NCBI RefSeq assembly: GCF_003024525.3 | Contig: NZ_CP035934.2 | Span: 2,480,001 to 2,544,000, forward strand | Direction: 5' to 3' | Source: Acinetobacter cumulans | GTDB taxonomy: Bacteria > Pseudomonadota > Gammaproteobacteria > Pseudomonadales > Moraxellaceae | Length of the DNA: 64,000 nt | Shown here: positions 11,344 to 38,138 of the stretch, piece by piece | Numbering within the stretch: the stretch's first letter is position 1 | Layout: each line of letters starts with the position of its first letter | Program-made: the position numbers and the translations under genes | Notes under the pieces: model-generated | What the model saw: only the letters and a program-made list of their open reading frames with translations | Told to the model about the DNA's origin: nothing | Database searches by the model: none

Positions 11344-13020
<1,677 letters not shown>

Positions 13021-13821
13021 ATGAACACTCAATTTTCCCTTATCCAAAGTATCGATGCCTTGTTACCACAAACCCAGTGTGGCTTATGTGGTCACCGCGA
13101 TGGTTGCTTACCTTATGCCAAATCGATTGCGGAAGGTGAAGATGCCAACAAATGTGTTCCAGGTGGTCAGCCTGTTGCTGATGCACTCGCCAGTTTGTTA
13201 GGTCGTGACAAACTGACCGCTGAAGAAAGTGTTTGGCCAACACAGAGCGATGGTCGCCCACAACGAATGAAAGCCGTTATTCGTGAAGATGAATGTATTG
13301 GTTGCACCAAATGTATTAGTGCCTGCCCAGTAGATGCCATCATTGGCTCTGGCAAACTGATGCATACCATTTTGACCGATTTATGCACAGGTTGTGAACT
13401 ATGTATTCCACCCTGCCCTGTAGACTGCATTGATTTGGTCGAAGATTTACAAAATGTTCCGACAGACCTTATTCGTATTGCTGAGCAAAATGATTTACGT
13501 GATCGTTATTACTCACACATTCAACGTGAAGAAAAGCGTCGTGTAGATCGTAAAGGGCCTGTTGTTCGTGCTGAAATTGATACTGCTCTTTTTGCTCAAT
13601 TTTCTGCGCAATCTACCGCTATGCCTGACATACAAGTGGCTGAAAAACCTGAACCAGTTGCGGTTAAACTGGATGCAAAAACCACGATTGAATTAGCTAA
13701 AATTCGCACACAAATTAAGAAGTTAGAAAAACAGCTTAGTGTGCGTGAGGATGCCAATAAACGCCAAATGCTTGAGCAACTAACTGCACAACTCAATGCA
13801 TTGCAAGGAGCATCTGCATGA
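13021..13821 (+). CDS. rsxB: RsxB/RnfB-like iron-sulfur electron transfer protein
   Basis: The ATG at 13021 gives 266 aa. The N-terminal 4Fe-4S domain has '[23 protein letters not shown]'. Two ferredoxin clusters follow: '[12 protein letters not shown]' and '[12 protein letters not shown]'. A Glu/Lys/Gln-rich coiled tail ends the protein. RsxB is normally part of the membrane Rsx/Rnf complex, but the usual N-terminal membrane anchor is not obvious in this product and no rsxACDGE genes are adjacent. It overlaps nth by ATGA, so the pair is probably co-translated, echoing the rsx-nth order in E. coli. It may supply electrons to, or help maintain, a cluster-containing partner; this is inference. 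Confidence 0.85.
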
Positions 13822-14513
13822 CTGTAAAAAACATGACTAAAAAGCAAATTCAGACTTTTTTTGAACGCTTAAGAGCGCAGCGTCCGCACCCAGAAACAGA
13901 ACTCAATTATTCTAATCCTTTTGAATTATTGGTTGCCGTCACGCTGTCCGCACAAGCGACCGATGTAAGCGTAAATAAAGCCACAGATAAATTATTCCCC
14001 GTTGCCAATACTCCTGAAGCCATTTATGCCCTAGGTGTAGAAGGACTCAAAGAATATATCAAGACCATTGGTTTATATAATTCAAAAGCCGAAAATGTGA
14101 TTAAAGCCTGCAAAATGCTCATTGAAAAGCATAACAGTATTGTGCCAAATAACCGTGCCGACCTTGAAGCCTTACCCGGTGTAGGACGTAAAACGGCCAA
14201 TGTGGTGCTGAATACTGCATTTGGCCAACCTACAATGGCGGTAGATACACATATTTTTCGTTTAGGTAATCGTACTGGATTAGCGGTAGGCAAAAATGTG
14301 CTCGAAGTCGAACACCGCTTAGTAAAAGTCATCCCCAAAGAATTTATTGTAGACTCTCATCATTGGCTCATTTTACATGGTCGTTATTGCTGTATTGCAC
14401 GTAAACCCAAATGTAATGAATGCATTGTGTCCGATGTTTGCAACTGGCCAGACCGCTTTGAATTTGGCGCAACCCGCCCCATACAAATCAAAAACAGCAA
14501 AGCTGAACTTTAA
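13818..14513 (+). CDS. nth: Endonuclease III
   Basis: Nth is a base-excision DNA glycosylase/AP lyase for oxidised pyrimidines. The helix-hairpin-helix '[14 protein letters not shown]' carries the catalytic Lys, and the catalytic Asp lies in '[12 protein letters not shown]'. The 4Fe-4S motif C-x6-C-x2-C-x5-C is present in '[17 protein letters not shown]'. At 231 aa it is slightly longer than the E. coli enzyme (211). The start overlaps the rsxB stop (ATGA), and AAGGAG lies just upstream at 13805-13810. Its stop codon lies inside the terminator stem. Confidence 0.96.
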
Positions 14514-14527
14514 GTTCAGCTTTTTTA
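14499..14527 (+). terminator. Intrinsic terminator overlapping the end of nth
   Basis: The stem aaagctgaactt / aagttcagcttt is followed by a T run; the nth TAA is within the loop/stem junction. It also faces the convergent small membrane protein gene. Confidence 0.85.
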
Positions 14528-14549
14528 TGAATGATCCAAAATCAATGGC

Positions 14550-14735
14550 TTATTTATTATTTTGATCTTGTTGTTGTTTAATTTTAGGATGCAATTGGCG
14601 CTCTGGAGCACCTGCTTGTTTTCGTTCTAAAGCTTCTTGCTTACGTACATTTACCAGCATTTTATAACTCATCACAGAAACACCAATAACGACAGCAACC
14701 GTCACCAGCATCATTAAAACAACACCTATTTCCAT
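14550..14735 (-). CDS. Small single-pass membrane protein, hypothetical
   Basis: A 61-aa protein with a hydrophobic N-terminal helix (about residues 4-25) and a highly charged Lys/Arg/Gln tail, so it is probably an inner-membrane protein with a cytosolic tail. It lies downstream of adk on the same strand but after adk's terminator. I do not recognise a family. The frame is between real genes and does not shadow one, which supports it as a genuine small gene. Confidence 0.55.
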   Translation of the reverse strand: MEIGVVLMMLVTVAVVIGVSVMSYKMLVNVRKQEALERKQAGAPERQLHPKIKQQQDQNNK

Positions 14736-14761
14736 GATTTAACCTATTTATCAAAACCAAC

Positions 14762-14793
14762 AAAAAGAGCCCTAATATGACTTAGGGCTCTTT
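14762..14793 (-). terminator. Intrinsic terminator of adk
   Basis: On the minus strand the stem agagccctaa / ttagggctct is followed by a T run, 25 bases after the adk stop. Confidence 0.9.
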
Positions 14794-14818
14794 GAAAGTC
14801 AAAATTCGAAAAATCGAA

Positions 14819-15490
<672 letters not shown>

Positions 15491-26148: not shown

Positions 26149-27420
26149 ATGAAACATACCCTACTTAGCCTTGCTATAGTTACACTCCTCACAGCCTGTG
26201 GTGGTGGCAGTTCATCTGATGGTCAATCCACAAATAATAATGGCAATCCAAATACCCCCACAACACCAAGCACGACGAATAAAATTGGTATTTTGACTGA
26301 TGCTGTAATCAGTGGTGTGCACTATGTATCTAAAAATAGCCAAGGTGTTGTCAGCTATGAGGGTACAACCGGTGATGCATCATCAACAAATGGTAAAGGT
26401 TCATTTAAGTATAATGAAGGCGACAAAGTGACCTTTTCTATCGGTGATATAGTGCTTGGCTCGGTCACAGCGCAAGCAAAAATCTCTCCACTTGAACTCG
26501 CTACAGATCCAGTTATCCACAACAATTTAATCATTTTGCTTCAATCTTTAGATGCCGACCAAAATCATAGCAATAGTATTGAAATTTCCACCAAGACCGT
26601 AGAGGCTTTAAAAGACAAAACAATTGTATTGAATACACCTACCGCGTCATTTATAGCCGATGCCACTTTCCTTCAAGCTGTAAAAGCATCTGGAACTGCT
26701 GTGGTCCCTTCAGAAACGGCCTTAGCAAACTTCATTGATAGCTTTGCCAAAGACAATGAAGGTGTTTGGAGTTATAGCAATAACGGCACCAGAGTTTTGC
26801 TCTATATTAAAGGTGCAGTTGAAACTGTTAACAAAGATAAATACCTACACTTTATCTTTGCACAAGTAGGACCTGCCGACAATGATGGACAATCTGGATT
26901 TGAACAAGGCAAATTTAAATGGGATCCACTCACAGGCAAATTAACAGTGGTTAGCCCATTAACTCAAGACACCAATGGTGGCTGGGGACTTTCTGATTCG
27001 AGTCAACCATTTAGCTTACTGTATGGCAAAACAGAAGGAACGTTACAGTTACTCACTGAAGACCCTACACCTGTTGTATTAACCAAACTCCCGAGTGAAA
27101 GCAACAGCATCGTCGGTGCTTGGAAAAATGCTGATGCACTCGTCGCCATGTATAACGACAAAACATATTTGTACGTAGGACTAAGTAATGAAGACTGTGG
27201 TGGCCCAGGTATTGAGTATGGAACTTATTCTGCAAGCAATGGCATTTTAAAAGCCGAATCTGTTCAATACGACACCACAGGTTGCCTAGGTCTAGTCGAC
27301 ACATGGGGAGATTTAAGTCAGCATAAATATGACTTAGATACCTTTAAATATAGCCTCAACGATAAAACCATCAATATCCAATATGAAGATGAACCTGTAA
27401 GCACACTGAGTCACTTATAA
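26149..27420 (+). CDS. Surface-type lipoprotein, A-B domain form (paralogue of the gene at 33.2 kb)
   Basis: A 423-aa lipoprotein: signal peptide with lipobox 'LTAC', then a low-complexity GGGSSS/Asn-Thr-Pro linker. Next is a conserved domain 'GILTDAVISGVHYVS..VTFSIGDIVLG' also seen in the second lipoprotein. The C-terminal part has two related units: one starting 'GVWSYSNNG' and one starting 'IVGAWKNADA' that contains 'CGGPGIEYGTY'. I do not know a proven function; domains of this kind occur in Acinetobacter surface proteins. It converges on a LuxR-type regulator gene, and this pair is duplicated on the far side of the adhesin gene. Confidence 0.75.
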   Translation: MKHTLLSLAIVTLLTACGGGSSSDGQSTNNNGNPNTPTTPSTTNKIGILTDAVISGVHYVSKNSQGVVSYEGTTGDASSTNGKGSFKYNEGDKVTFSIGDIVLGSVTAQAKISPLELATDPVIHNNLIILLQSLDADQNHSNSIEISTKTVEALKDKTIVLNTPTASFIADATFLQAVKASGTAVVPSETALANFIDSFAKDNEGVWSYSNNGTRVLLYIKGAVETVNKDKYLHFIFAQVGPADNDGQSGFEQGKFKWDPLTGKLTVVSPLTQDTNGGWGLSDSSQPFSLLYGKTEGTLQLLTEDPTPVVLTKLPSESNSIVGAWKNADALVAMYNDKTYLYVGLSNEDCGGPGIEYGTYSASNGILKAESVQYDTTGCLGLVDTWGDLSQHKYDLDTFKYSLNDKTINIQYEDEPVSTLSHL

Positions 27421-27426
27421 ACTGAA

Positions 27427-27461
27427 TGGAACATGATCTAATGAATGAAGCTCATGTTCCA
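27427..27461. terminator. Hairpin between convergent lipoprotein and LuxR genes
   Basis: The 10-bp inverted repeat tggaacatga / tcatgttcca lies directly before the regulator's stop codon. T runs are weak, so strength is uncertain. Confidence 0.55.
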
Positions 27462-28613
27462 TTACACAATATGCTCAAAACCCATCGACAAACTCATCAG
27501 CTTACGCATCAATTCAACCTGAGTGGTACTTTGGGTTTTGGCAAAAATATTTTTAAAATACGTTCGTACCGAACTAATTGTTAAGCTACATTGCGTCGCA
27601 ATATCTTCCATATTCGCGCCATTGACGAAGCGCACACACATTTCACATTCACGTGTAGTTAATGCAAAAGTTTCCTTTAAGTAATCATTCGAAAGTGAAT
27701 ATTGTTGTTGCTTTTCAGATAAGAACAACACAGCAAATGCACCTTGCTCAATCTGGATTAAATGCTGAATACTACTTAAAGGTGTAATACTTAGCATATA
27801 GTCTTGTCCATTTTTGGCTTTCAACTCAAGTACACCACCTATATCATGATGTGTGTCTTGGCGCTTATAGAGCGCACTCTGTACAGTTTTTTCAAATTTA
27901 GCTTGTTGATCCCGCCTGACCAGCAAACGATTTTTTTGATCAAATTCGAATAATTTAGATTGCTCTAATAAGGCCTGTGCGGCTTTATTGCTGTATTTTA
28001 AAACTTTATCTTCATCAATTAAAATAATGCCAATTTTGATTAAGTCTAATATTTGAAATAAATTTTGCCCCATTGTCTGCGCAAAGCTTAATTGCTTATA
28101 GATTTGTAAACTACGACGGATATGCACACCCAGTCGCTGAAAGAACATCATTTCGTCGTGACTAAACTCTTGATTGACTGCTTCACGGTGAATACCTAAA
28201 ACTGACCAGCGATATTCCCCTTTATCGAGTAATACGGCAGCAATATAACTAATGCCAGTAATTTTTAAGCATTTCTCATAAAATTCTTGTTTGTCTGCAT
28301 TTGTACTGCTTGCATAGTGACTTAAATCAAAATGCATGACACCACCAACACCAATGCTATCCCATAGTGGAACATGAAGCTTCATATCGATTGCTTTCAC
28401 ATTTTCATCTTGGTAAGCGTCTATGCTTGCTTGAGGAATATTGTATGTAAAAACAATATTATATTTAGGGTTTAATAAATCTAATACTGTCAATATTGCG
28501 GTTTTACTGGCTGTATAATCCACAATTTTTTTGAGTATTTCAGGCCATAAAGAAAGATTGACCGCGGCATCGTATATTTCCCCAATGATATGATTTTCAA
28601 TTTCAATATCCAT
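27462..28613 (-). CDS. LuxR-type HTH transcriptional regulator (copy 1)
   Basis: A 383-aa regulator with a C-terminal LuxR/GerE helix-turn-helix ('ALTTRECEMCVRFVNGANME..SSVRTYFKNIFAKT', about residues 315-365). The N-terminal ~180 residues are a sensor-like region starting 'IIGEIYDAAVNLSLWPEIL'; the middle part looks PAS-like ('LIKIGIILIDEDKVLKYSN'). No autoinducer-synthase gene is nearby. The start at 28613 has AAGG seven bases upstream. It is a close paralogue of the gene at 35.1-36.2 kb, identical in length and layout. A role in controlling the neighbouring lipoprotein or adhesin genes is inferred from location only. Confidence 0.85.
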   Translation of the reverse strand: MDIEIENHIIGEIYDAAVNLSLWPEILKKIVDYTASKTAILTVLDLLNPKYNIVFTYNIPQASIDAYQDENVKAIDMKLHVPLWDSIGVGGVMHFDLSHYASSTNADKQEFYEKCLKITGISYIAAVLLDKGEYRWSVLGIHREAVNQEFSHDEMMFFQRLGVHIRRSLQIYKQLSFAQTMGQNLFQILDLIKIGIILIDEDKVLKYSNKAAQALLEQSKLFEFDQKNRLLVRRDQQAKFEKTVQSALYKRQDTHHDIGGVLELKAKNGQDYMLSITPLSSIQHLIQIEQGAFAVLFLSEKQQQYSLSNDYLKETFALTTRECEMCVRFVNGANMEDIATQCSLTISSVRTYFKNIFAKTQSTTQVELMRKLMSLSMGFEHIV

Positions 28614-28772: not shown

Positions 28773-31700
28773 TTATTTACCGCCAAACACATAAGATACG
28801 CCTACACGACCACCCACTTCATTACCACCAGCAAAACCTAGTGCAGCACTGAATGCAGTACGGCCATCATTTAGCACGCTTGCAAGACCTAAAGCAGCAG
28901 CAGATTCGCCTTCATAGTGACCAACACCACCAAATACTGCAACTTGACCTGCACCAATGTTTGGAATTTGCTGTTGAGCAGCAAGTGCAATTGCAACCCC
29001 CCGATACGATGTTTGCTCTACATCACCCACTCGACTATTTAATTGACTAACACGTGAATCCAATACGCTTACTTGCGTATCTGTATAAGACTTTGCTGAC
29101 GCTAATGTATCAACACCTGTTTTAGCAATTACAGAATTAATTCGTGCAGATTCTGCTGTTGCCTCACTTCTAATCGTTTTTGCAGTCTCATTTGTAAATG
29201 CATTGGCTGATGCTAAAATTGTTTGATCAGCATCTTTCATTTGCTTTAAATTTACTGCATCAGTATCTATAGTCCCTGCCTTAACATTAGTTATTTGACG
29301 CTCACTCCCTGTTGAACCAACGGATACAGTATTATTCCTTGTTGAGCTTGAGTTATTTCCAAGAACAACTGTATTTTGTGCTGAGGTGTTTACGTTGTTA
29401 CCCAATACAAAAGTGTTATCACCTGAAATGGTGTTATCATTACCAAAAGCATAACTGGCACTACCTGAAACTATATTTGGATCACCCAACGCGCCAGAAC
29501 GATCTCCGCTAACAATATTTCCTGTACCAATACTAACAGTTTGTACACCCAAAGCCTGTGCACCAGATCCTAACGCTATTGATGAAGCTCCGTTAGCTGT
29601 TGCACTATGTCCCATAGCCAAAGCAGAAGCACCACCAGTACCCGTACTTGCATTCTGCCCAATTGCTATTGAATCTTGTCCAGATGCAGTAGCTTGCTGT
29701 AAACCTTGTGATGAGCTCACCGCAACATTTGGGGAACCATTCAAATTTGCATCAGTATATGCTTTCGCTTGCGCAAGGGTATTAGCATCTGCTTCTGAAA
29801 TTACCGTATTCAACCTACCAGTTTCAGCTAATGTCTCTTTACGTAAAATTGCTACCGTATCTGCTGTATTTTTGTTTGCTGAGGCCAAAGTTGCTTTATC
29901 ACCATCGGTGATTACTTGATTTACACGTGCTGATTCTATTGAAGCTTCTTGACGCAATACTGTAGCTGTATCCGCAGTCGTTTTATTGGCAGAAGCTAAA
30001 GTTGCCTTGTCTCCATCGGTGATGGTTTTATTTACCTGAATAACTTGAGCTGATACCTCTTGACGTAAAGCAGTTGCCGTATCCGCTGTGGTTTTATTTG
30101 CAGAAGCCAAAGTTGCCTTATCACCATCAGAAATTGCTTGATTAACGCGAGCTGTTTCCACAGAAGCTTCTTGACGCAAGGCTGTAGCCGTATCTGCTGT
30201 AGTTTTATTTGCAGAGGCTAAAGTTGCTTTGTCTCCATCTGTAATGGCTTGATTGACACGTGCTGTTTCTGCTGAGGCTTCTTGACGTAATACCGCTGCT
30301 GTATCTGCTGTAGTTTTATTTGCAGAAGCCAAAGTTGCTTTGTCTCCATCTGTAATGGCTTGATTGACACGTGCTGTTTCAACGGAAGCTTCTTGACGTA
30401 ATACCGCTGCTGTATCTGCTGTAGTTTTATTTGCAGAAGCCAAAGTTGCTTTGTCTCCATCTGTAATGGCTTGATTGACACGTGCAGTTTCTGCTGAGGC
30501 TTCTTGACGTAATACCGCTGCTGTATCTGCTATGGTTTTATTTGCAGAAGCTAATGTTGCTTTATCTCCATCAGAAATTGCTTGATTGACACGTGCTGTT
30601 TCAACGGAAGCTTCTTGACGTAAATCTACTGCCGTATCCGCTGTATTTTTGTTTGCAGAGGCCAAAGTTGCTTTGTCTCCATCTGTAATGGCTTGATTGA
30701 CACGCGCTGTTTCAACGGAAGCTTCTTGACGTAATGCAGTTGCCGTATCCGCTATGGCTTTATTGGCAGAAGCTAAAGTTGCTTTATCTCCATCGGTAAC
30801 GGCTTGATTTACACGTCCTGTTTCTACTAAGGCTTCTTGACGTAAAATTGCAACCTGATTATCTGTATATGTATTTACACCAATAAGAGAATCACGCAAC
30901 AAACCATTTACTTGACCTAAATTAACTGCTTGATGATCATCAACAGCATTAGCCAAATGATTGATATAATTATTTTGAACATCAATAGTATTTGTTTTTA
31001 ATGCCCCTTTTACTTGCAAATCACCAGCAATCAGCTCATTAATATTAGCGGTATTTATAGATGCATTGCCATTCAAGTACAAATTGGCTGTGCCATTATA
31101 GCTATCAATCAATCCTGTAGATTGACCATTCTGATCCACAAATTGAACCGTAGATGTATTTAAACCCCTCAAGTCCATCTGGTTAATTCCTGTTAAGGTA
31201 CCATTTACTTGTAAATCACCTGTGGTCAGTTTACTTGCTGTTAATTCATTAATATTAGCGGTATTTATAATTGCATTGCCATTCAAATATAAATTTGACG
31301 TGCCATTATAACTATCAATAAAACCTGTAGATTGACCATTCTGATCCACAAATTGAACCGTAGATGTATTTAAACCCCTCAAGTCCATCTGGTTAATTCC
31401 TGTTAAGGTACCATTTACTTGTAAATCACCTGTGGTCAGTTTACTTGCTGTTAATTCATTAATATTAGCGGTATTTATAATTGCATTGCCATTCAAATAT
31501 AAATTTGACGTGCCATTATAACTATCAATAAAACCTGTAGATTGACCATTCTGATCCACAAATTGAACCGTAGATGTATTTAAACCCCTCAAGTCCATCT
31601 GGTTAATTCCTGTTAAGGTACCATTTACTTGTAAATCACCTGTGGTCAGTTTACTTGCTGTTAATTCATTAATATTAGCGGTATTTATAGTTGCATTGCC

Positions 31701-32474
31701 ATTCAAATATAAATTTGACGTGCCATTATAACTATCAATAAAACCTGTAGATTGACCATTTTGATCCACAAATTGCACCATAGATGTATTTAAACTTCTT
31801 AAATCCATCTGATTGATTCCCGTTAAAGCTCCATTTATCTGTAAATCACCAGTGGTCAATTTACTTGCTGTCAATTCATTAATATTGGCTGTAGTTATAT
31901 TTGCATTGCCATTAAGTTGCAAATCAGTATGGCCATTTTGACTATAAATATAACTACCATCCGATTGACCATTTTGATCCACAAAAGATAGGCCAGTTGC
32001 ACGCAAATCGTTAATATTCATTTGGCTTACACCAGAAAGTGTGCCATTAATTTGTAAATTATTTGTTATTAATGTCCCATTAATATTTGTATCATTTAAA
32101 TTAGAAGTCCCAGATACAGTATTATCTCCAGATAAATATAAATTTGTTAGACCATTATAATATTGGATCGCACTTCCCGCATAATTCCCATAATCATCGG
32201 TAAAATACACATTTTGAACAGTTTGGGTCACCGTGTTTTGCGATGTGCTAGATACACCTCCATTAACATTAATAGTATTAGCTGTAAGGTCATTAGCATT
32301 AATTAAATTCGCTGCTATTAATCCTGATGAGTTTATGTTATTTACAGTCAGCTCTGGTGTCTGAATATAGTTAGGAGCTATTACATCATCTTGCACAGTA
32401 GCATTTGCTATACCTGCATAGCCATAGATAATATAGAAAATAGAAGCTGTTAGGGCTGTATATTTATATTTCAT
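28773..32474 (-). CDS. Trimeric autotransporter adhesin (YadA-like)
   Basis: A 1233-aa surface adhesin; the ATG at 32474 has AGGTG upstream and starts a signal peptide ending 'GIANAT'. The order is unusual: first ~450 residues of ~70-aa beta-type repeats ('LTTGDLQVNGTLTGINQMDL..'), then nine 37-aa helical repeats with 'DGDKATLASANK'. Next come YadA-head-type left-handed roll motifs ('SIAIGQNAS', 'NTVVLGNNSS'), a neck ('RQITNVKAGTIDTDAVNLKQ'), a short coiled coil and the YadA anchor barrel ending 'VGGRVGVSYVFGGK'. Such proteins form trimers that mediate adhesion, biofilm or serum resistance; the target is unknown. It is flanked by two lipoprotein/LuxR modules. Confidence 0.93.
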   Translation of the reverse strand: MKYKYTALTASIFYIIYGYAGIANATVQDDVIAPNYIQTPELTVNNINSSGLIAANLINANDLTANTINVNGGVSSTSQNTVTQTVQNVYFTDDYGNYAGSAIQYYNGLTNLYLSGDNTVSGTSNLNDTNINGTLITNNLQINGTLSGVSQMNINDLRATGLSFVDQNGQSDGSYIYSQNGHTDLQLNGNANITTANINELTASKLTTGDLQINGALTGINQMDLRSLNTSMVQFVDQNGQSTGFIDSYNGTSNLYLNGNATINTANINELTASKLTTGDLQVNGTLTGINQMDLRGLNTSTVQFVDQNGQSTGFIDSYNGTSNLYLNGNAIINTANINELTASKLTTGDLQVNGTLTGINQMDLRGLNTSTVQFVDQNGQSTGFIDSYNGTSNLYLNGNAIINTANINELTASKLTTGDLQVNGTLTGINQMDLRGLNTSTVQFVDQNGQSTGLIDSYNGTANLYLNGNASINTANINELIAGDLQVKGALKTNTIDVQNNYINHLANAVDDHQAVNLGQVNGLLRDSLIGVNTYTDNQVAILRQEALVETGRVNQAVTDGDKATLASANKAIADTATALRQEASVETARVNQAITDGDKATLASANKNTADTAVDLRQEASVETARVNQAISDGDKATLASANKTIADTAAVLRQEASAETARVNQAITDGDKATLASANKTTADTAAVLRQEASVETARVNQAITDGDKATLASANKTTADTAAVLRQEASAETARVNQAITDGDKATLASANKTTADTATALRQEASVETARVNQAISDGDKATLASANKTTADTATALRQEVSAQVIQVNKTITDGDKATLASANKTTADTATVLRQEASIESARVNQVITDGDKATLASANKNTADTVAILRKETLAETGRLNTVISEADANTLAQAKAYTDANLNGSPNVAVSSSQGLQQATASGQDSIAIGQNASTGTGGASALAMGHSATANGASSIALGSGAQALGVQTVSIGTGNIVSGDRSGALGDPNIVSGSASYAFGNDNTISGDNTFVLGNNVNTSAQNTVVLGNNSSSTRNNTVSVGSTGSERQITNVKAGTIDTDAVNLKQMKDADQTILASANAFTNETAKTIRSEATAESARINSVIAKTGVDTLASAKSYTDTQVSVLDSRVSQLNSRVGDVEQTSYRGVAIALAAQQQIPNIGAGQVAVFGGVGHYEGESAAALGLASVLNDGRTAFSAALGFAGGNEVGGRVGVSYVFGGK
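29830..30850. repeat. 111-bp (37-aa) tandem repeats in the adhesin stalk
   Basis: Nine copies of a 37-codon unit with core 'DGDKATLASANK..ADTA..LRQEAS'. Adjacent middle copies (for example starting 30241 and 30352) are almost identical at DNA level and exactly 111 bp apart. Copy number can change by recombination without losing the frame. Confidence 0.9.
31051..32050. repeat. 210-bp (70-aa) tandem repeats in the adhesin N-terminal region
   Basis: Units starting at 31051, 31261, 31471, 31681 and 31891 are spaced exactly 210 bp apart. The units at 31261 and 31471 are essentially identical; the outer ones are more diverged. The unit encodes 'ANINELTASKLTTGDLQVNG..' followed by 'QFVDQNGQSTGFIDSYNG'. 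Confidence 0.92.
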
Positions 32475-32738
32475 AAGGTTCACCTTTCTTGACATTTAGT
32501 TTTTATTCAAGAAAAAATCCTATACTCAACAATGTTCCGTAATACATCCCCATTTAAGGATATTTTTATTTTAAATAATCTTTTTAAAGCTTTTTTTTCA
32601 ATACAATTTCATAACCATTAGTAAAAAAAAATTTATAACCCCTATCAACAAAACAAAATTTTAAAAAATAAGTATATTTTTTAAAATTTCTTTTTACTAA
32701 CTTGTAACGTATTTTCATAACATAAATAAATTTTAAAT

Positions 32739-32771
32739 ATAAAAAATCCCCGCATTTGCGGGGATTTTTTT
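32739..32771 (-). terminator. Second copy of the adhesin terminator
   Basis: Same stem (aatccccgca / tgcggggatt) and flanks as the terminator at 28714-28746. It follows the relic adhesin 3' end. Confidence 0.85.
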
Positions 32772-32798: not shown

Positions 32799-32880
32799 TT
32801 ATTTACCGCCAAATACATAAGAAAGACCTACACGACCACCAACAACACCAATTGCAGCGCTAAGTGAAGTACGGCCATCA
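32799..32880 (-). pseudogene. Relic 3' end of a second trimeric autotransporter gene
   Basis: Read on the minus strand this encodes 'DGRTSLSAAIGVVGGRVGLS' then 'YVFGGK' and a stop, matching the last residues of the intact adhesin. DNA similarity to the end of the intact gene continues through its terminator. Everything upstream of the 'DGRTS' codons is missing and replaced by the start of an RND transporter gene. Confidence 0.85.
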
Positions 32881-32938
32881 CTATAATAGCGAGCACACCT
32901 GCAAAAATTGGACGTTCAATAAAAAATTTTGACAGCAT
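32828..32938 (-). pseudogene. Relic 5' end of an RND efflux transporter gene, fused out of frame to adhesin sequence
   Basis: From an ATG at 32938 the minus strand encodes 'MLSKFFIERPIFAGVLAIIV', the unmistakable N-terminus and first membrane helix of an AcrB/MexF/AdeG-type RND pump. After 21 codons it runs into adhesin DNA in another frame and stops at 32828, giving a 36-residue strongly hydrophobic peptide. A short frame (ending TGA at about 32951) just upstream may be the tail of a lost preceding gene. The junction shares a few bases (TGATGGC-like), suggesting an illegitimate deletion. Confidence 0.75.
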
Positions 32939-33178
32939 AGAACAAGATCACTTTCTGGTGGCGATTGGGCTTAAACACGCAATATTTTTCTTCAAATTAA
33001 CATAGGCGAGTGGATCTTCCGTGACTGAAAATCAAAAAATTATACTTTTTCACAAAAATATTGTTTTTTCTTCATTTTTTCTCACAGATTTTGTATTTGA
33101 CCTCCCAATTTTGGGATAGCTCCTAGATTCATCTTATTTCTATACTTCTGACATAACAATTTGGATGACAAGGAATTC

Positions 33179-35050
33179 ATGATGAAAAAAACCTTATTAT
33201 GCTTAACTTTAGCAGGCTTACTCAGTGCATGTGGCGGGTCAGACAATGATTCTGGTAGTTCTGCTCCCCCACCATCAAACACCACAAAAACTGGCGTACT
33301 GACCGATGGGCCTGTGAGTGGTGCAACTTATACAATTAATGGTGTCTCTAAACGTACAAATGCTCAAGGGGAGTTTGAATATCAAGAGGGTGATGAAATC
33401 ACTTTCTCCATCGGAAATATTGAAATTGGCACAGTGATTGGTGCTGATCGTATTACCCCTGTGGAGTTAGCTGATGATGTAACAACACGAACAAATTTAC
33501 TTATTTTTTTACAATCTTTAGATTCTCAGGGGGGGCATGACGATGGTATTCAAATCCCTGACTCAGTGAGTCAACTCCCTGCAAACTCAATTGACCTCTC
33601 TAAACCAACAACTGAATTTATTACAAGCTTTCAACCTGTTCTACAAACAATAGAAGATTTTAAAGATAAAGTCGTAGTTAGCGCAACAGAAGCACAAGCT
33701 AACTTTAACCAAACACTACTCAAAGATATCGTTGGGGTTTGGTATGCGAAAAATGCTGACTCAGAAATCGTACTTCAAGTAACCTCAGACGGGAAATACC
33801 TGATTGGCGAACCTATTGTTAGCTCACCATCTGATAGTGCAAATGGCATGGAGTATGGTGAATTATCGGTAAATGCTGTTGCTGGAGATTTATGGGCGCA
33901 ATCTTCAATTGATACAAATGAAGATTGGGGCTTAACTGATTCTGGAAAAACACGTGATATGAAAATATCATTTGATGGTACGCAGTTAAAAATTTCTGAA
34001 GCTCAAAACCCTAATGAAAGTGCAACATTTACTAAAGTCCCTCAAAACAATTCGAGCATTGCCGGTGCTTGGAACTCAAGTTCAGGCAAGCAACTATTTG
34101 TTTTCAATCCAGATAATAATACCTATATCATGGTTGATGCTGTTGGGGACGATCAAGTGGAAGTTGGAGAAATGCCTTGTGGTGGACCAGGTATCGAATA
34201 TGGTAAATATCGTGTTCAAGATGGAAAGTTATTCGTAGATAATATCCTGATCGATACAAATGGCTGTGCAGGCTTATCTGACAATAGTGCAAACTCAAGC
34301 TCAGGTCTACCAGTCACGGTTAATTCGACATCACTTACACTCCACGAACCAAATGAAGGTACATTTATACTCACAAGACCCAATACAGAAGGTGCTACCA
34401 CAAGTAGCGCAAGCCAATTCTATAAAGATATTGCTGGAACTTGGGAAATTGGACGTACCAATGCATCTGCTGTTTTATTACATATTTTACCCGATGGACG
34501 TTATGCTCTGGGTGAAGCAGATGTAGCTGATGAAACAGGGAAGCCTGGTATTGAAATCGGACAATTAAATTGGAATGCTTTAACCTCAGCGCTGAACCCT
34601 GTAATTTCCATAGATACAAACGGTGACTACGGGCTTTCACATCCTGACAATGATGGTCACCACCGCCTAAGTTATAATGGCACAGATCTAGTGCTGACTG
34701 ATGTAGGAAGTAATAGCACCTATATTTTAACTAAAGTAAAACAATCATCAGGTCTAGTTGGCACTTGGCAATTTAATCAAACTCACTTGTTTGCTTTCTT
34801 TGACACAGGATTCTATTTCTTGTTAGACACCGAAGGTGATTGCGATAACCCAGGAATTGAATATGGTAAATATTCAATAACATCCAATACACTTGCCGTA
34901 ACAGAAGTGTTATATGACACCAACGGTTGCGGTGGATTACATGACACTTCGGATAGCGCTAAAGTTAATGCAACTTATAGCATCTCCGGAACAAGTCTAA
35001 CCTTGCATCCACAAGGCGAAGACACTATTACCCTACAACGTAGTAACTAA
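33179..35050 (+). CDS. Surface-type lipoprotein, A-B-A-B domain form
   Basis: The start is ATG ATG at 33179/33182 with AAGGA upstream; the TTG at 33161 precedes the ribosome binding site and is unlikely. The product is ~623 aa: signal peptide with lipobox 'LSAC', a short Ser/Pro linker, the shared domain 'GVLTDGPVSGATYTI..TFSIGNIEIG', then four related units. Units starting 'IVGVWYAKN' and 'IAGTWEIGR' resemble each other (A type). Units starting 'IAGAWNSSS' and 'LVGTWQFNQ', each with 'GPGIEYGKY' or 'NPGIEYGKY', resemble each other (B type). The paralogue at 26.1 kb has one A and one B. The lipid anchor suggests the outer membrane; binding function is unknown. It converges on LuxR copy 2. Confidence 0.75.
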   Translation: MMKKTLLCLTLAGLLSACGGSDNDSGSSAPPPSNTTKTGVLTDGPVSGATYTINGVSKRTNAQGEFEYQEGDEITFSIGNIEIGTVIGADRITPVELADDVTTRTNLLIFLQSLDSQGGHDDGIQIPDSVSQLPANSIDLSKPTTEFITSFQPVLQTIEDFKDKVVVSATEAQANFNQTLLKDIVGVWYAKNADSEIVLQVTSDGKYLIGEPIVSSPSDSANGMEYGELSVNAVAGDLWAQSSIDTNEDWGLTDSGKTRDMKISFDGTQLKISEAQNPNESATFTKVPQNNSSIAGAWNSSSGKQLFVFNPDNNTYIMVDAVGDDQVEVGEMPCGGPGIEYGKYRVQDGKLFVDNILIDTNGCAGLSDNSANSSSGLPVTVNSTSLTLHEPNEGTFILTRPNTEGATTSSASQFYKDIAGTWEIGRTNASAVLLHILPDGRYALGEADVADETGKPGIEIGQLNWNALTSALNPVISIDTNGDYGLSHPDNDGHHRLSYNGTDLVLTDVGSNSTYILTKVKQSSGLVGTWQFNQTHLFAFFDTGFYFLLDTEGDCDNPGIEYGKYSITSNTLAVTEVLYDTNGCGGLHDTSDSAKVNATYSISGTSLTLHPQGEDTITLQRSN

Positions 35051-35057
35051 ACATATT

Positions 35058-35092
35058 TTAAAGCTGCCTAAGCAAAATTTAGGCAGCTTTAA
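35058..35092. terminator. Bidirectional terminator
   Basis: The long stem ttaaagctgccta / taggcagctttaa overlaps the stop codon of LuxR copy 2 and serves the convergent lipoprotein gene. Confidence 0.85.
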
Positions 35093-36240
35093 CCAATATG
35101 CTCAAAATGAATGGTACAACCCATTAATAAATGCATGAGTTCAATTTGCGATTTGCATTGGGTTTTTTCATAAATATTTTTAAAATAAGTGCGCACCGAA
35201 CTGAGCGTAACTCCACAATGTTCCGCGATTTCTTCTAACTTACAACCATTCAACAACAACTCACACAGCTCAAACTCACGTTTAGACAATTGATAAGCTT
35301 GCTGCAAATAGGCTTTTGACAAGGCATAGTGCTGATGCTTATCGGTCAGAAATACCGCAATTTGATGTTGTCCTGCATTTTGATGCTGCATATTTTTTAA
35401 TTTAGAACAAGGTACGATAGTCAGCATTAATTGTTTTCCTTTCGCATCTGACAAAGACAATACACCGCCTACATCTGCGTTTAATGCCGACTGTCCCAAC
35501 AACGCTGAATGTAATAATTGATCTAAACGACTTTGATCATAAGCATGGGTTTTTAAACGATTATACAAGTCCAAATCTAAACATGAATCGTGTTCCAGCA
35601 TGCTTTGAGCTAAAGGGTTTGAATAAATCAAACTCAGCTGATGATCAAGCAAAATTACACCTGTTTTTAAATGATCGAGCACACTATACAAACTTAAATT
35701 TTCTTGTTTAACCAAACTAAATTGACGATGGATTTGTAAGGCACGGCGCAAATGCACACCCAAATGCTTTAAAAAATCCAACTCTTTTTGTTGATACGGC
35801 GCTACATCTGGCGCACGATGTAATCCTAAAACTGCCCAACGATGTGAACCCTGATCGAGCAAAACAGCCGAGATATAACTAATTCCCGTCGGATTCAAAC
35901 ACCGTTCATAAAAGATATATTCATCACTTTCAGGGTTTTCCCCATAATGCGATAAATCCGAGCTCGCTACTTGCCCCACACCTAAATTTTCCCACAATAC
36001 TCGGTGTAACTGCATGTCAATCACGCGAATCCGCTCATCACGATAGGCATGCAAAGCTTCATCTGGAATATTGTGACTAAATAAAAAATCGTAACTTGGA
36101 CTAAATTGATCTAAGGCAGTAAAAATGGCGGTTTTACTGTCTGTATATTGAACAATTTTTTCAATTACTTGCGGCCATAAATTCACATCTACAGCGGCAT
36201 CATAAATACTGCCTATAATTTCGTGTTCTCGGTTATCCAT
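35089..36240 (-). CDS. LuxR-type HTH transcriptional regulator (copy 2)
   Basis: The ATG at 36240 (AGGGGAT upstream) gives 383 aa, exactly as long as copy 1 and similar throughout: N-terminal 'IIGSIYDAAVDVNLWPQVI', middle 'HLKTGVILLDHQLSLIYSN', HTH 'QLSKREFELCELLLNGCK..SSVRTYFKNIYEKT' and the same ending 'FEHI'. The upstream extension to 36273 is unlikely. Like copy 1 it converges with its lipoprotein partner. The repeated arrangement implies a duplicated cassette; ligand and targets are unknown. Confidence 0.85.
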   Translation of the reverse strand: MDNREHEIIGSIYDAAVDVNLWPQVIEKIVQYTDSKTAIFTALDQFSPSYDFLFSHNIPDEALHAYRDERIRVIDMQLHRVLWENLGVGQVASSDLSHYGENPESDEYIFYERCLNPTGISYISAVLLDQGSHRWAVLGLHRAPDVAPYQQKELDFLKHLGVHLRRALQIHRQFSLVKQENLSLYSVLDHLKTGVILLDHQLSLIYSNPLAQSMLEHDSCLDLDLYNRLKTHAYDQSRLDQLLHSALLGQSALNADVGGVLSLSDAKGKQLMLTIVPCSKLKNMQHQNAGQHQIAVFLTDKHQHYALSKAYLQQAYQLSKREFELCELLLNGCKLEEIAEHCGVTLSSVRTYFKNIYEKTQCKSQIELMHLLMGCTIHFEHIG

Positions 36241-36445
36241 TTTTATCCCCTTTATGCCTACTCCAGCCTGCATTACATTTATTTAATCATTTGTTTTTAT
36301 TATTGTTCTAAACAAGAATAATAAGTTTTATTCACAAAAAAAAGTAGTTTAGATACATATCACACATTTAATACGTAAATAAAAAATAGCTAGGTGATTT
36401 TGTCTTTTCACGTGTGCAATCTCTACATTACAAAAACTGCGCCAT

Positions 36446-36479
36446 AAAAAAACCCCGTATCTGACGATACGAGGTTTTT
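36446..36479 (-). terminator. Intrinsic terminator of groEL
   Basis: On the minus strand the stem cctcgtatcg / gatacgggg is followed by a T run, about 20 bases after the groEL stop. Confidence 0.88.
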
Positions 36480-36500
36480 GAAGTTTGGGTACGCTGAGGT

Positions 36501-38138
<1,638 letters not shown>

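Follow-up and report, generated by a model that had tools for sequence, protein, structure and literature searches.

A pump-adhesin gene joint in Acinetobacter cumulans as the probable illegitimate end of a groEL-anchored import from the Acinetobacter towneri group

A short chimeric segment in the genome of Acinetobacter cumulans, in which the start of an RND efflux pump gene is joined to the end of a trimeric autotransporter adhesin gene, most probably (about 77%) marks the edge of an interspecies import that was exchanged homologously at its groEL end and joined illegitimately over 7 bases at its far end, the signature of homology-facilitated illegitimate recombination (HFIR). The segment lies in a window of 64,000 nucleotides (contig NZ_CP035934.2, positions 2,480,001 to 2,544,000), which is the whole stretch of DNA that was analysed and to which the positions below refer unless another sequence is named. 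The import itself, the group to which its donor belonged and the positions of its two borders are well supported by sequence comparison; that transformation was the route, and that there was one event rather than two, we infer. The features of the locus are given in Table 1.

Table 1 Features at the scar, in the tract regarded as imported and in the adjoining host genes
Feature	Positions	Strand	Basis
RND gene head, A. towneri-like	32874..32938	-	Protein and DNA matches; the intact A. towneri gene matches PF00873
Overlap TGATGGC, 7 bases, common to both parents, at the putative illegitimate joint	32874..32880	-	Alignments
3' end of a second trimeric autotransporter (YadA-type) gene, host side	32799..32880	-	Alignment to adhesin ends
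Terminator of the destroyed host adhesin gene	32741..32770	-	Stem-loop scan; plus-strand call of a symmetric stem
Imported A. towneri-like tract, ~3.65 kb	32874..36563		Identity profile, breakpoint sites, conflicting trees
Imported intact lipoprotein gene; no family in the Pfam scan	33179..35050	+	94% protein identity to A. towneri L020
Imported intact LuxR-type regulator gene, GerE domain	35089..36273	-	DNA identity to A. towneri strains
Host groEL; last codons hold the homologous crossover, 3' flank of donor type	36501..38135	-	Site comparison, groEL tree
Intact adhesin beside the scar, 1240 aa, YadA anchor	28773..32495	-	ORF list, Pfam scan

Sequence and translation of the minus strand identified 32938-32874 as the first 65 bases of an AcrB/MexF-like RND pump gene, with an ATG at 32938 opening the frame MLSKFFIERPIFAGVLAIIVMA..., and a second minus-strand frame ends in ...SDGRTSLSAAIGVVGGRVGLSYVFGGK and a stop at 32799, followed by a terminator at 32741-32770. 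The RND half matched the intact A. towneri RND protein at 95% across 22 residues (E 1.6e-6). At the DNA level it was matched in many congeners, at places not each confirmed as an RND gene, and most of the full-length matches end at 32874 or at most 4 bases off. This congener search scored five candidates per genome, which makes absences from it weak, and the adhesin tail was rechecked in six genomes. The adhesin half together with its terminator agreed with the end of the window's intact adhesin at 125 of 139 aligned bases (89.9%) and with the adhesin end of the Acinetobacter genome G084 at 126 of 143 (88.1%), and by these alignments the scar tail appears to be about equally close to the two. 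The scar terminator likewise aligns with the terminators of both adhesins; the stem-loop at 32741-32770, taken alone, also resembles other terminators, including ones in A. towneri. The translation and the protein and DNA alignments bear out the earlier note in its reading of the segment as a chimeric scar of a pump start and an autotransporter end, with both parents correctly named.

Alignment to both parents also confirmed the TGATGGC overlap that had been proposed at an illegitimate joint. Comparison with three RND heads and three adhesin ends showed that the base preceding TGATGGC is RND-like and the base following it is adhesin-like. Among 500,000 random joints between the RND gene of the A. 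towneri locus L023 and the adhesin gene of G084, joints sharing at least 7 letters occurred at a frequency of 6.4e-4, which favours a microhomology joint and does not favour import over deletion. The two halves adjoin as had been described, but the pump codons do not run in frame into the adhesin end, as the joint is out of frame and the RND frame stops after 36 codons, and the cell is predicted from the sequence to retain a hydrophobic frame of this length at the scar. The adhesin tail is short of 15 bases that are present in three aligned adhesin ends, which may reflect either later decay or a lost adhesin that was already shorter. The joint (29 bases, at most 3 mismatches) was found in one of 175 genus genomes, the window's own, and is thus carried by a single genome.

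The tract that begins at the joint contains the RND head, the lipoprotein gene, the LuxR-type gene and the groEL 3' flank, and in the identity profile the similarity between the window and A. towneri begins exactly at 32874. Identity to the A. towneri locus L020 was 93-99% in 11 of the 14 bins of 250 bases between 33000 and 36500, and 84, 87 and 89% in the remaining three. Right of the tract, it was 80-89% in the groEL bins and 62-71% in the two genes after groES; further right, the conserved pckA gene is 82-93% identical to A. towneri, showing that high identity occurs outside the tract as well. The LuxR gene of the window was 98.1% and 97.6% identical at the DNA level to two A. towneri strains that are themselves 97.3% identical to each other, compared with 86.4% to A. 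towneri for groEL and 66.5% for the phosphoesterase gene beyond it. In the first two of the three lower bins, L020 is surpassed by other loci, L021 being 90-96% identical to the window at 33000-33500 and L023 sharing 232 of 245 bases at 32874-33118. Each of L020, L023 and L021 is closest in a different part of the tract, and no sequenced donor matches the whole of it at 98%. The lack of a single strain that is closest throughout suggests either a mosaic donor strain within the A. towneri group, itself unseen, or several imports.

The genes of the tract have a narrow distribution at high identity. A scan for the tract lipoprotein gene gave four loci, two of them from A. towneri, and the LuxR protein was found at 95% identity or above in 3 of 174 other genus genomes (G089, G029 and G158), the next best match being 69%. 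No match to the tract LuxR at E 1e-30 was present in G120, G084 or G154, and G039 has a 52% relative with an inner stop, about 16 kb from groEL. The loci L020, L023 and L021 probably come from the same assemblies as G029, G089 and G163 and are not independent of them. L020 and L023 both have an intact 1034-aa RND gene at the same place, and their order is intact, with genes that we take, from reading the proteins, to be htpX, DUF4112, mgtE, RND, lipoprotein, LuxR and groEL.

Trees of LuxR and groEL conflict with high support. In the LuxR tree (25 proteins), the window groups with G029, G089 and G158 with support of 100/100, and in the groEL tree (26 genes) it groups with G120, G039, G084 and G154 with support of 100/96; G158 groups with two A. 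towneri genomes in both. The 25 rows of the LuxR tree were those with a match of at least 330 aa, the others being dropped, and its warnings covered five long branches and a long-branch join, none inside the window's group of four, with the entry WINDOW_LuxR1 itself among the long branches. The groEL tree was built from 26 of 62 rows, picked by hand and excluding G049. Together, the tree conflict and the identity profile place the donor in a lineage other than that of the host.

The right border of the tract falls inside homology between donor and recipient, in groEL. The groEL 3' flank with its terminator resembles the donor as far as the stop codon and differs from four host relatives, and within groEL the window is the same as L023 up to 36563. 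The first site at which the window differs from both A. towneri strains is 36564, where its letter is found in three of the four relatives and G084 carries the donor letter. The strictest sites, at which A. towneri differs from all four relatives, begin at 36603. In groEL there are 112 sites of this kind; the window has the letter of the relatives at 101 of them, that of A. towneri at 9, which are scattered, and neither at 2. By site comparison, the right crossover is homologous and lies between 36500 and 36563 when judged from the nearest sites, or 36602 when judged from the strictest.

At the far border, the flanks are unrelated and share only TGATGGC, within the 3-10 bp of HFIR joints. Four genomes of the A. 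towneri group and A2 (G029, G089, G158 and G163) match the terminator stretch only and not the adhesin coding tail, and G084 matches the host side of the scar at 90% over 109 bases, coding tail included; by this comparison the adhesin tail appears to belong to the host side. G084 also has the left side of the locus in common with the window, at 87.8% over 14.5 kb. Its order is TonB, then an adhesin of 579 aa, then 1.2 kb containing a single ORF of 127 aa, and then groEL, with none of the tract. As no other large gene separates the G084 adhesin from groEL, it is very likely that a second adhesin did once stand at the scar, as had been claimed. G084 is without the lipoprotein-LuxR-adhesin block found left of the scar, so the exact state before the event is not seen in it. 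The 5' part of the scar adhesin is gone, and from G084 we infer both the length lost and its loss in the same event. Two tandem adhesin anchor domains on the groEL side of the locus L105 (genome G035, 12449-15113) are a precedent for two adhesins at this place. In the intact adhesin at 28773-32495 the stalk contains nine or more in-register repeats, each exactly 37 aa long (motif GDKATLASANK, allowing for up to 2 changes), and their number is likely to be variable.

The host's own RND ortholog is open and of full length at C1:1049293-1052352, near mgtE, DUF4112 and htpX and 1.46 Mb away, and its protein is 71% identical to the A. towneri pump. With an intact native ortholog elsewhere, no RND gene need ever have stood at the scar. 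Within G000:C1:1049293-1055999, the native RND gene is inverted relative to mgtE-DUF4112-htpX when compared with A. towneri. Relocation of the native pump by chromosomal rearrangement was considered and rejected, since the native protein is 71% identical to the A. towneri pump and the 22 residues at the scar are 95% identical. The RND half is not of the host lineage, given that the adjoining tract groups with A. towneri and the ortholog is elsewhere. The resident RND operon that the earlier note had placed here is accordingly unsupported, the RND head being the edge of an A. towneri-like tract that starts at the joint. Nor does the A. towneri gene look like part of an operon, as it has mgtE on one side and a divergent lipoprotein gene on the other, with no membrane-fusion gene among the ORFs listed beside it.

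We surveyed 60 loci. They represent 60 of 173 other genomes in which groEL was matched, chosen mainly from the head of the list, and include short stretches (L050, L096 and L101). This RND gene was on the groEL side in 23 genomes. The adhesin anchor, for which the anchor and N-terminal parts of the window's own adhesin served as the sole tblastn queries in this survey (E 1e-8), lay between RND and groEL in 6 of these 23 and in none beyond RND, where a simple deletion would require one, the far side being outside the view in G093 and little of it visible in others. This distribution leaves the proposed loss of the RND gene by deletion unsupported. Relatives do have the parent genes at this place, as had been anticipated, with an intact RND gene in A. 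towneri and an adhesin in G084, but these belong to different lineages.

Given that the joint alone looks the same as a microhomology deletion, the scar could also have arisen in two steps, in which a longer A. towneri block with the whole RND gene, as A. towneri has at this spot, was imported and a later deletion at TGATGGC brought the RND head together with the adhesin tail. We regard this as unlikely, as it needs two events and an additional joint on the left, for which we found no trace, and as an A. towneri htpX-to-RND query was near-identical in the window's own genome only at the 65-base head (97%), the other 16 own-genome matches being 69-83% identical. A fusion of a resident RND operon and a resident second adhesin by a single deletion would account for both halves and for the microhomology, all of which are real, but it is contradicted by the tree conflict, by the A. 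towneri-like and not host-like sequence from the RND half through to groEL, by the intact native ortholog elsewhere and by the survey result for the adhesin anchor, with its limited view of the far side, and we consider it scarcely credible.

A contamination figure of 6.35% for the assembly, and a contig C2 that repeats stretches of C1, would be expected if reads of a co-sequenced A. towneri had been joined into the contig. Such a chimera is highly improbable, as two joints would be required, one of them within the last codons of groEL, and the repeated stretches are an alternative source of the contamination figure. C2 (177 kb) of this assembly (G000) repeats stretches of C1 at about 964-1056 kb at equal scores, which may be either assembly redundancy or a large real duplication; L024 is the reverse complement of L025 over 6123 bases, and L026 and L027 are not identical over the whole fetched length. 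It is also very unlikely that a plasmid brought the lipoprotein-LuxR cargo with an already broken RND head, to be fixed through homologous exchange in groEL. The plasmid NZ_CP015595 of Acinetobacter sp. NCu2D-2 carries 79 RND codons, a lipoprotein gene and a broken LuxR gene, but its identity to the tract reaches only 67-72% and it has a longer RND piece. Coverage of 80% of the tract was attained by no plasmid record, and the 25 ORFs (80 aa or longer) listed around the scar showed no transposase on inspection by eye. Transposition was rejected on the same inspection, and no word of 7-14 bases is common to 32841-32900 and 36451-36600 as a flanking repeat. A phage vehicle was rejected as well, since three records of a phage collection match the tract only at groEL, with a coverage of 1-3%.

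In the single import that we favour, a linear fragment from the A. towneri group would have entered the cell, most likely by natural transformation, carrying part of the RND gene, the lipoprotein-LuxR pair and groEL, or at least its end. Its groEL end would have paired with the resident groEL and crossed over in the last 21 codons (34 by the strictest sites), and its other end, having no homologous partner, would have been joined at TGATGGC inside the 3' end of the resident adhesin. The same event would have inserted about 3.65 kb of donor DNA and removed the adhesin body together with everything between it and groEL, a loss of about 2.9 kb had the resident state resembled that of G084. Carried on the imported fragment, the RND head would be a passenger rather than the remnant of an operon once resident here. 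Members of the ComEC and DprA families occur in the genome; they are also found in E. coli and in most control genomes and therefore say little about transformation.

HFIR has been reported in three transformable species including A. baylyi, mostly at 3-10 bp of micro-homology, where it couples insertion with a deletion of similar size, averaging ~1 kb, and in A. baylyi it is 10^5 times rarer than homologous recombination, according to the part of that report used here (PMC3240628). The scar resembles HFIR of A. baylyi, S. pneumoniae and P. stutzeri in its one homologous end, its 7-base far end and an insertion that probably went with the loss of a resident gene, and it occurs in the genus of one of the described hosts. 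It differs from laboratory HFIR, as presented in the same part of the report, in being natural, unselected and between species, and in an insert of ~3.65 kb compared with the ~1 kb average (PMC3240628). For the T6SS effector-immunity arrays of V. cholerae, gene displacement beside a conserved anchor has been proposed, and the scar is similar to these arrays in having an anchor and an illegitimate far end, with part of the displaced unit remaining downstream (PMC5361080, in part). Unlike those arrays, to the extent that the portion of the paper used describes them, the displaced unit here is an adhesin, the cargo is a lipoprotein-LuxR pair, and the edge of a third gene lies at the joint. In microhomology deletion scars that fuse resident genes the joint looks alike, whereas here its two sides differ in species origin.

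Convergent lipoprotein-LuxR pairs are present twice in the window, at 26149-28613 and 33179-36273, and such a pair recurs near groEL in several Acinetobacter genomes, sometimes beside a YadA-type adhesin. Relatives of the LuxR gene are found in 57 of 175 genomes, the window's own counted. At 83003-85722 of the 310-kb plasmid NZ_CP015595.1 (L108:11829-14740), an RND head, a lipoprotein gene and a broken LuxR gene stand in the same order as in the tract, and the RND head (79 codons) ends about 100 bases from an IS66 transposase gene. By sequence, this broken pump head appears to be a second, independent case in the same segment, and the parallel suggests that the segment has probably travelled at least once more. 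We tentatively raise the possibility that groEL-anchored illegitimate exchange carries the lipoprotein-LuxR pair as a cargo unit from one Acinetobacter species to another. The flank of groEL would then be a place where adhesins and neighbouring genes turn over, with pump-gene heads as its recurrent passenger scars.

HFIR is known from the laboratory, where it is rare, and this scar looks like a clean natural case between species that allows the donor group, the side of the recipient, the homologous end and the 7-base illegitimate end all to be recognised. It also serves as a caution against taking a gene fragment in a genome as proof that the gene was formerly present at that place. The outcome of the event would be the gain of intact lipoprotein and LuxR-type genes and the loss of a second adhesin, suggesting that a single import could bring in a regulator pair, destroy a surface adhesin and replace the groEL 3' flank without a mobile element.
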